DNA of 43,416 nucleotides from Actinomycetota bacterium (GTDB lineage Bacteria > Actinomycetota > Thermoleophilia > Gaiellales > F1-60-MAGs149), in the NCBI GenBank assembly GCA_947478745.1, contig CANJXE010000004.1, forward strand, positions 1-43,416, in the 5' to 3' direction. The position numbers were made by a program, and so were the translations under genes. The notes beneath the pieces were generated by a model. It was not told where the DNA came from. It saw only the letters and a program-made list of their open reading frames with translations, and searched no databases. Below, piece by piece: positions 31,305-33,615 of the stretch (position 1 is the first letter of the stretch; every line of letters starts with the position of its first letter).

Positions 31305-31895
31305 TCAGACGGGACTGCTCTTGTCGATGCCGGCCCGCTTGAGCGCCCGGTCGGCCAGCGCCGACCGGAGACCGACGACGGAGAGCAGCACGACGATTGC
31401 GTACAGCTCCACGCCGGCGCCGTAGATGATCCACACGGCGAACGGCGTGATGATCAGCGCAGCCTGCGCCCCACGTGCGAAGTCCCAGCGCCAGCGGATG
31501 ATCAGCAGCGCGATGGCGGCGGGAATGCAGGCCAGCGGAACGACCACCAGAGCACCGCCGACGAGACAGAGCACGCCGCGCCCGCCGCGAAAGCGCATCG
31601 TCACCGGGAACATGTGGCCGAGGATCACGGTGGTCCAGGCGATCACGCCGCCCCAGACCCCGGCGAGCATGATGCCCACGCCCGCCGCTGCAGCGGCCTT
31701 CGCAGCATCCAGGAGCAGGATCGGCACCGACGAGCGAATCCCGATGCGGTCGCGGGCGTTCCAGTAGCCGGGATTGCGGTCGCCGACGGCCCGCAGGTCA
31801 TCGACGCCGTGGCGCCGGGCGATCAGGTTGGCAAACGGAACGCAGCCGAACGCGTAGCCGACGACGGCCGCCAACAGCAGCAGTTGGATCGTCAT
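31305..31895 (-). CDS. PlsY-like glycerol-3-phosphate/acyltransferase family membrane protein
   Basis: 196 residues with about five to six membrane spans. PlsY motif 1 is altered: GDRNPGYWNARDRIG instead of the usual GSGNPGATNVLR. Motif 2 is kept as GHMFPVTMRFRGGRGVLCLVGG (usual FPVFLKFKGGKGVATxxG). The differences suggest a PlsY paralogue with another acyl acceptor rather than the main phospholipid enzyme. It starts within the end of the upstream 118-residue gene (ATGA overlap) and ends 2 bp from the convergent glycosyltransferase. A role in acylating a carotenoid glycoside is a guess from this neighbourhood. Confidence 0.72.
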   Translation of the reverse strand: MTIQLLLLAAVVGYAFGCVPFANLIARRHGVDDLRAVGDRNPGYWNARDRIGIRSSVPILLLDAAKAAAAAGVGIMLAGVWGGVIAWTTVILGHMFPVTMRFRGGRGVLCLVGGALVVVPLACIPAAIALLIIRWRWDFARGAQAALIITPFAVWIIYGAGVELYAIVVLLSVVGLRSALADRALKRAGIDKSSPV

Positions 31896-32248
31896 GCGGG
31901 CTGCCGCGCCAGCTCGTCGATGATCGCGCCGGCCACCACGAGCCGGTCGATGGCCCCGTGGGCCCCCGGTCCCCAAGGCCAGCGCGTCAGCCACTCGACC
32001 AGACTCCAGACCGCTGCACGTGCCGCATCGGAGCGCGGGTCCTCGGCGACCAGGTCATGCGCACGCTCCGCCTGCTCCAACGTCGTCGTCGGCTCCCGGC
32101 CGTTGACGCAGCGATGTCGCACGAGGATCACCACGCGGGCGAGGAGACGCTCCGCAAAGCGCTCGAGATCGGCGACCGTGTCGCCGTTGAGCTCCCAGTA
32201 CAGGTCGCGCTGGGCGCGTGTCAGCAGGAGGTCATCGGTCGAGAGCAC
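31892..32248 (-). CDS. small protein of unknown function, coupled to the PlsY-like gene
   Basis: 118 residues, acidic, helical, no membrane segment: MLSTDDLLLTRAQRDLYWELNGDTVADLERFAERLLARVVILVRHR. No family recognised. GTG 32248 is preceded by TATCCT (32260-32255) at 6 nt, so the transcript is probably leaderless. Its stop overlaps the next start by four bases, so it is translated with the acyltransferase-like protein. Confidence 0.65.
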   Translation of the reverse strand: MLSTDDLLLTRAQRDLYWELNGDTVADLERFAERLLARVVILVRHRCVNGREPTTTLEQAERAHDLVAEDPRSDAARAAVWSLVEWLTRWPWGPGAHGAIDRLVVAGAIIDELARQPA

Positions 32249-32299: not shown

Positions 32300-32722
32300 T
32301 CAGCGAAACGGGAACCCGACGGGGATCGCCTTGGTCAGCCTTCCCTGCGACGAGACGAAGCGGAAGACCGGGTGCGACACGACGCCGAAGGCCTTGCCGA
32401 TGCGACCCGTCCGGTCCACGTAGACCCGCACGGGAGCGCTGCCGAAGCGCCGGACCACGAACGCCTGCGTATCCGCCCTCGTCCCCGCTGACACGGCGAT
32501 CACGCGAACCCCGGGATGCGTCGACGCAAACTGCGCGACCTCAGGCGCCTCGGCCTGGCACTGGGTTCAGAACGGGTGGAGGAACATGACGATGGTCGAC
32601 GAGCCCGTCAGCTTCGCCGGGGCGATCGTGCCACCGACGATCTGCGCTGCGCCCGCCGGCCCAGCGCCGAGCGCGAGAATCGCGGCAGCGGCGAGGGCGA
32701 TCAGAAATCGACGGGGCGACAT
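32300..32722 (-). CDS. secreted TlpA/thioredoxin-like protein with in-frame UGA, probable selenoprotein (UxxC)
   Basis: 140 residues if one in-frame TGA (32569-32567) is read as selenocysteine at position 52. Start ATG 32722 gives a signal peptide (MSPRRFLIALAAAAILAL... cleavage near AGA); ATG 32740 is in frame and would add six residues. Before the TGA the frame reads SSTIVMFLHPF, the beta-strand that precedes the active site in TlpA-type redoxins; after it T-Q-C-QAEAPEVAQF, so the UGA takes the place of the nucleophilic Cys in CxxC. The remainder is standard fold: VRVIAVSAG, APVRVYVDRTGRIGKAFGV, and the cis-Pro loop SHPVFRFV. No other stop interrupts the frame. A hairpin (CAGGC/GCCTG around CGAGGC) begins 9 nt after the UGA and could be a SECIS element. 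Alternatives: a nonsense mutation or sequence error. Conventional gene callers would split it at the TGA. Confidence 0.7.
32541..32566 (-). promoter_or_regulatory. candidate bacterial SECIS hairpin
   Basis: Immediately after the UGA, minus-strand RNA can pair CAGGC with GCCUG (positions 10-14 and 21-25 after UGA), loop CGAGGC with G as its second base, and ACC at the base may pair with GGU across an internal loop. Bacterial SECIS elements have a loop at about 16-37 nt from UGA; here it begins at 15. Marginal but compatible. Confidence 0.35.
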
Positions 32723-32754: not shown

Positions 32755-32973
32755 TCAGGCCGTGACGGGTGCGGGCTCGTCCTCGAGGACGGAGCCGCAC
32801 TCGCGACAGGCGTGGGCAGTCCGTCCACCGCGCAGCTCGACCCGGAAGGTCTCGCCTTCGCAGACGACGCAGACGCCGTCGACGGCGCTGCGATCGTGTG
32901 GCGCCCAGGCGTCGAGGAGCTCCTGGAGCGTGCCGGTGGTCGGGACGGTTGCCTGCATTTCGACGGTAAGCAT
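32755..32973 (-). CDS. small zinc-ribbon protein downstream of lexA
   Basis: 72 residues. Two CxxC knuckles (CVVCEG and CRECGS) about 23 residues apart predict one zinc ribbon; the N-terminal half, TLQELLDAWAPHDRSAVDGV, is helical, the end is acidic. No function is assigned. ATG 32973 lies 3 bp after the lexA stop, with GGAGG inside the end of lexA, so it is cotranscribed and is probably under SOS control with lexA. Confidence 0.65.
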   Translation of the reverse strand: MLTVEMQATVPTTGTLQELLDAWAPHDRSAVDGVCVVCEGETFRVELRGGRTAHACRECGSVLEDEPAPVTA

Positions 32974-32976
32974 TGC

Positions 32977-33615
32977 TCAGATCCTCCGGAAGACGCCCAC
33001 CACGACGCCCATGACGACGACGTGGTCGGGGAAGAAGGGCTCGAGATGATCGTTCTCGGGGTCGAGGCGCACCCGGCCGTCGATCCGACGAAGGCGCTTG
33101 ACCGTGGCCTCATCGCCATCGACCAGACACGCTGCGATCTCGCCATCGGAGCAGTCCTCCTGCCGGCGGATGACCACGGTATCGCCGTCGAGGATGCCGG
33201 CGTTGATCATCGAATCGCCGCGGACCTTGAGGAGGAAGTTCTCGCCACTGCCCGTGATCTGCTCCGGCACGGCGATGTGCTCGGTGACGTTCTCCTCGGC
33301 GAGGATCGGCGCACCGGCTGCGATGCTGCCGACCAGCGGCAGCAGCCGCACCCCGGGCATCTCAGCCAGCTCGACACGCTGGGCCCGCGCGGCGCGGGCA
33401 TCGCGACGGTCGGCCAGATCGATCGCGCGCGGCTTGGTGGCGTCCCGCGTGAGCGCCCCCTGCTGCTCGAGCGCCTTGAGGTGCGCATGCACCGTGGACG
33501 GGGAGTTGAGTCCCACAGCCTCGCCGATCTCGCGAACGGTTGGCGGGTACCCCTTCTGCTCCATGTGCTCCTGGACCACGTCCAGAATCTCCTGCTGTCG
33601 CTTCGTGAGTGCCAC
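32977..33615 (-). CDS. lexA: LexA repressor
   Basis: 212 residues. SOS master repressor. N-terminal winged helix (residues 1-65; recognition helix in PPTVREIGEAVGLNSPSTVHAHLKALEQQG), cleavage site Ala100-Gly101 in SIAAGAP, and the self-cleaving serine protease domain with Ser135 (GDSMI) and Lys173 (EATVKRL). GTG start at 33615 with GGAGGT about 6 nt upstream. Two LexA operators lie at 33629-33644 and 33661-33676 directly before the gene, so it is autoregulated. The downstream zinc-ribbon gene is probably in the same transcript. Confidence 0.96.
   Translation of the reverse strand: MALTKRQQEILDVVQEHMEQKGYPPTVREIGEAVGLNSPSTVHAHLKALEQQGALTRDATKPRAIDLADRRDARAARAQRVELAEMPGVRLLPLVGSIAAGAPILAEENVTEHIAVPEQITGSGENFLLKVRGDSMINAGILDGDTVVIRRQEDCSDGEIAACLVDGDEATVKRLRRIDGRVRLDPENDHLEPFFPDHVVVMGVVVGVFRRI

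Follow-up and report, generated by a model that had tools for sequence, protein, structure and literature searches.

The window (that is, the whole stretch of 43,416 nucleotides that was analysed) carries on its minus strand a TlpA/AhpC-TSA-like redoxin gene (32300-32722; 140 aa plus a terminal TGA) whose reading frame is interrupted by a UGA, which raises the question of whether this codon is read as selenocysteine (Sec) or marks a damaged gene. The frame starts with an ATG at 32722, ends with a TGA at 32302-32300 and harbours one internal UGA only, at codon 52 (32569-32567), which is followed by Thr-Gln-Cys and falls where Cys homologues have the first Cys of CxxC. The original prediction had placed a minus-strand in-frame TGA at the first Cys of a TlpA-type CxxC and had read the codons that follow as completing UxxC; on both points, sequence and translation agree with it. 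With Sec at position 52 the product reads HPF-U-TQ-C (full frame: MSPRRFLIALAAAAILALGAGPAGA-AQIV...MFLHPF-U-TQCQAEAPEV...SHPVFRF...GFPFR), and the read-through protein was matched by the Pfam models AhpC-TSA (4e-10, above cut-off) and Redoxin (1e-6), both matches spanning the UGA. By itself, a UGA inside an open frame has little weight in this GC-rich window, where about 30 other stretches feature a UGA near a Cys with long open flanks; it is homology and conservation that place the redoxin UGA above chance. An evident N-terminal signal peptide (32645-32722, minus strand; MSPRRFLIALAAAAILALGAGPAGA-AQ, with an AxA-type site) was recognized by inspection, its boundary being approximate, and the corresponding sites of homologues read AAPANA-AQ (also by inspection), suggesting that the redoxin is exported.

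Structure prediction gives a thioredoxin fold with confidence (pLDDT 88) and places Sec52 just before the active-site helix. By sequence as well as by fold (Foldseek), the best solved matches are the Mycobacterium tuberculosis proteins DsbF (3ios) and DsbE/MPT53 (1lu4), followed by CcmG and ResA. Features typical of TlpA/DsbE-like proteins were found: the thioredoxin fold, a (C/U)xxC motif where the active-site helix starts, and an invariant Pro118 that is probably the cis-Pro. DsbF and DsbE/MPT53 share the actinobacterial thioredoxin fold, yet they carry Cys at the nucleophile position where the present redoxin would carry Sec. No NCBIfam model among those for StoA, ResA, DsbE and selenoproteins scored above its cut-off, the best being StoA at 27.1 of 210 bits. 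Taken together, the DsbF/DsbE matches, the signal peptide and the lipobox of the paralogues (below) make an extracytoplasmic thiol-disulfide oxidoreductase with a selenolate nucleophile the most likely reading of sequence and model, although export, redox direction and substrate are points that we infer. A selenoprotein that acts mainly as a peroxiredoxin-like thiol peroxidase is the principal alternative: AhpC-TSA is Pfam's top match and UxxC Prx-like selenoproteins are known (PMC2398784). However, the nearest solved sequences and folds are DsbF, DsbE/MPT53, CcmG and ResA, and both the CxxC spacing and the conserved Pro are typical of thiol-disulfide oxidoreductases, so that a mainly peroxidatic role is possible, if rather unlikely.

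Across 60 related genomes, UGA homologues of the redoxin were found in six genus-mates (69-52% protein identity) and in one genome of another genus of the family (39% identity), with a second UGA copy, a paralogue, in three of the genus-mates; every family homologue and paralogue harbours exactly one internal TGA, at the UGA site. The records of these relatives include Gaiellales and Actinomycetota metagenome assemblies, several of them bearing lake names. By inspection, the paralogue of the three genus-mates (L037, L038 and L039) shows a lipobox (for example, LTVAAC) and the motif HPLULSCG. When 399 genomes of the class were searched with a profile, five more UGA homologues, more distant and from the order and the class, came to light, together with a set of homologues that have no internal stop and in which Cys aligns exactly at the UGA position. 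Among the aligned homologues, Cys55, Pro118 and Gly127 are invariant and position 52 is either Sec or Cys. Downstream of the UGA, dN/dS is 0.16-0.33 in all six pairs compared and the frames are intact with no frameshift; the frame 3′ of the UGA is, by these ratios, under purifying selection. An alignment of homologues, which the original prediction had proposed as a check, thus shows UGA or Cys at this position and no decay.

These comparisons bear directly on whether an ordinary TlpA gene has here acquired a nonsense mutation or suffered a miscalled base. That the stop is single and comes from a metagenome assembly could be read that way, as could the failure to find tRNA-Sec in that assembly (below); yet the same UGA recurs, at 39-70% protein identity, in genomes that come from different sources and were assembled independently, the sequence beyond it retains the low dN/dS, and the redoxin locus in the genus carries either the UGA or no gene, never Cys. 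Moreover, the homologous UGA genes also use TGA as their true stop. Given UGA conservation, dN/dS, intact frames and TGA as a true stop, neither a pseudogene, nor a sequencing error, nor a genome-wide reassignment of UGA can explain the locus, and decay or miscalling is regarded as very improbable.

A SECIS-like hairpin (32539-32520, minus strand) lies downstream of the UGA, with an inner stem of CGCA/UGCG, an outer stem of GUCG/CGAC with a bulged U, and a GUU loop at 32531-32529 that begins 36 nt after the UGA. In 16 of 16 UGA genes a hairpin is found at the same place, its loop reading G-U-(U/A); its inner stem reads CGC(A/G) among Gaiellales, and the more distant clade has AUAG, the 3′ sides matching in each case. 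Pairing was found in 96.9% of the inner-stem cells over the 16 UGA genes and is lowered when the partner is shifted, while double-sided changes at all four inner pairs amount to 13 cells versus 3.1 when shuffled; as the UGA-gene rows are related, these statistics are indicative. Three of the four inner pairs change jointly within one clade, so the independent events may be few. The fourth pair is A-U with TTT and G-C with TTC or TAC (P value=0.008; Fisher test), with two unpaired exceptions. When hairpins that fit the published bacterial SECIS (bSECIS) model (PMC13188914) were compared with those of synonymous recodings, they were stronger in the UGA genes (z −5.2) but not in the Cys homologues (z 0.07), from which the conserved hairpin is absent. 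No Rfam family matched the hairpin. The original prediction had pointed to a hairpin starting 9 nt after the UGA, and such a hairpin does exist (32557-32542, minus strand; CAGGC/GCCUG with loop CGAGGC); related versions occur in many homologues, yet their register shifts, and this nearer hairpin was rejected as the sole SECIS. It is the hairpin at 32539-32520 that is taken as the main element, because its place and loop are kept in all 16 genes; a SECIS-like element, which the prediction had proposed to look for, is conserved and in keeping with the bacterial model, albeit further downstream. Elsewhere in the class, three UGA TlpA-like genes (L092, L094 and L098) carry ASWUxxC and a perfect 8-bp hairpin, equally far from the UGA, whose loop is GUA or GUU.

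Of the machinery for Sec insertion that had been predicted for this lineage, three proteins are encoded in the genome: SelA (493 bits) and SelB (301 bits) are encoded by adjacent genes on contig 31, and SelD (324 bits) on contig 24, all above curated cut-offs. In the source assembly (1.65 Mb; 87.65% complete), tRNA-Sec was not found, either with the Rfam model or with the tRNA-Sec sequence of a genus-mate as query, these searches giving only ordinary tRNAs or short matches, and no tRNA gene lies beside selB in this genome. The SDR gene that adjoins tRNA-Sec in the genus likewise has no close match in the source assembly (best, 38%), as would be expected of an assembly gap, which is the likely explanation for the missing tRNA. 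In the family, all seven relatives that hold the UGA redoxin have tRNA-Sec (57.9-64.7 bits), with anticodon TCA in the sequences that were read, so that the predicted tRNA-Sec, though not found in the incomplete assembly itself, accompanies the gene in every such relative. Co-occurrence of the UGA redoxin in the family is weak with SelB (P value=0.066; Fisher test) and closer with tRNA-Sec (P value=0.005; Fisher test, uncorrected for kinship). That an altered genetic code or an atypical tRNA makes the UGA stand for another amino acid, such as Cys or Trp, is scarcely credible. The undetected tRNA-Sec and the alignment of the UGA with Cys might point that way, but TGA is the true stop of the same genes (so there is no general reassignment of UGA), the genome encodes SelA, SelB and SelD, the hairpin goes with the UGA genes and is missing in Cys homologues, and the relatives have a canonical tRNA-Sec.

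The same genome harbours a second UGA redoxin, related to SelL (G000:C6:28442-28768, L110; contig 6), with the sequence RHPGUPVCQRHLRRA, which is conserved in the genus-mates G001, G003, G004 and G009. It represents a family separate from the present redoxin, with a match to the SelL-related model NF040769 that is below cut-off (67.9 of 120 bits) and the motif HPGUPVC. Four more AhpC-TSA family genes, each interrupted by a single TGA, lie in other genera of the order (G016:C2:4696-5067, G019:C26:10051-10425, G017:C3:24151-24522 and G017:C5:21069-21527) and are likely further selenoproteins.

We thus assign a probability of roughly 95% to the reading that the redoxin gene encodes an exported selenoprotein, a TlpA-like thiol-disulfide oxidoreductase with Sec52 as nucleophile. 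The conserved UGA/Cys site, selection on the frame, the SECIS-like hairpin and selA, selB and selD uphold the original prediction of a true selenoprotein, Sec insertion being deduced from them. In the proposed mechanism, ribosomes would read the UGA at 32569-32567 as Sec via SelB and tRNA-Sec, with the hairpin at 32539-32520 serving as SECIS element; the mature protein, located outside the cytoplasm, would be a TlpA-like thiol-disulfide oxidoreductase of thioredoxin fold, in which Sec52 would act as a selenolate nucleophile and Cys55 as the resolving residue.

The redoxin gene occupies a fixed place in the genus, where the order lexA, a zinc-ribbon-like small gene, redoxin, a 118-aa gene and plsY is kept. 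In the window, all on the minus strand, these conserved neighbours are lexA (32977-33615) upstream, also conserved in another genus of the family, the 72-aa zinc-ribbon-like small protein (32755-32973), and, downstream, a 118-aa protein with no family assigned (31892-32248) and a PlsY-like glycerol-3-phosphate acyltransferase (31305-31994). In four genus-mates the redoxin is missing from between otherwise intact lexA, small and 118-aa genes (L133, L134, L135 and L136). Neither SelB nor tRNA-Sec scored above cut-off in three of the four (G005, G008 and G010), whose assemblies are incomplete, and such absence is no proof of machinery loss; G009, the remaining genome, encodes SelB and carries the SelL-related UGA gene. 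A phage origin was considered and met no match. CcdA was rejected as a partner, as a CcdA-like gene lies beside a Cys TlpA paralogue on contig C61 and hence shows no specific link.

UxxC selenoproteins of the Trx-like, Prx-like and redoxin-family kinds are well known from metagenome surveys (PMC2398784; PMC13188914). The Trx-like 1 (COG0526) and thiol-disulfide isomerase-like (cd02966) selenoproteins resemble the present redoxin in their thioredoxin fold, UxxC, Sec nucleophile and common Cys homologues (PMC2398784; PMC13188914). By the descriptions of those families, the present clade is set apart by its His-Pro-x before Sec (where the Cys homologues and distant UGA homologues analysed here usually have Trp), by having both a signal-peptide form and a lipoprotein form, and by its place beside lexA in the genus. 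The Prx-like 1 and Prx-like 3/redoxin family proteins (PF00578 and PF08534) share the same Pfam matches and the UxxC motif, whereas the nearest solved relatives of the present redoxin are DsbE/DsbF rather than peroxiredoxins. A literature search for selenoproteins of Gaiellales or Thermoleophilia found no paper. The redoxin is a new HP-x-U-x-x-C subfamily of the known UxxC kind in a little-studied lineage, and introduces no new principle.

The locus is Cys-free in the genus, and the gene is absent at an intact lexA locus where the Sec machinery is mostly undetected, which might point to a role that Cys cannot fill; an obligate Sec subfamily HPxUxxC of Gaiellales in which Cys would be unable to substitute, with a possible lexA-linked role in DNA damage or oxidative stress, is put forward as a tentative and rather improbable proposal. 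Since such genes are truncated at the UGA or dropped by gene finders, and no NCBI family model reaches its cut-off on this one, annotations probably lack an enzyme family of lake actinobacteria. A natural test of what retains selenocysteine would be offered by genus-mates that share one locus but differ in having the Sec trait.
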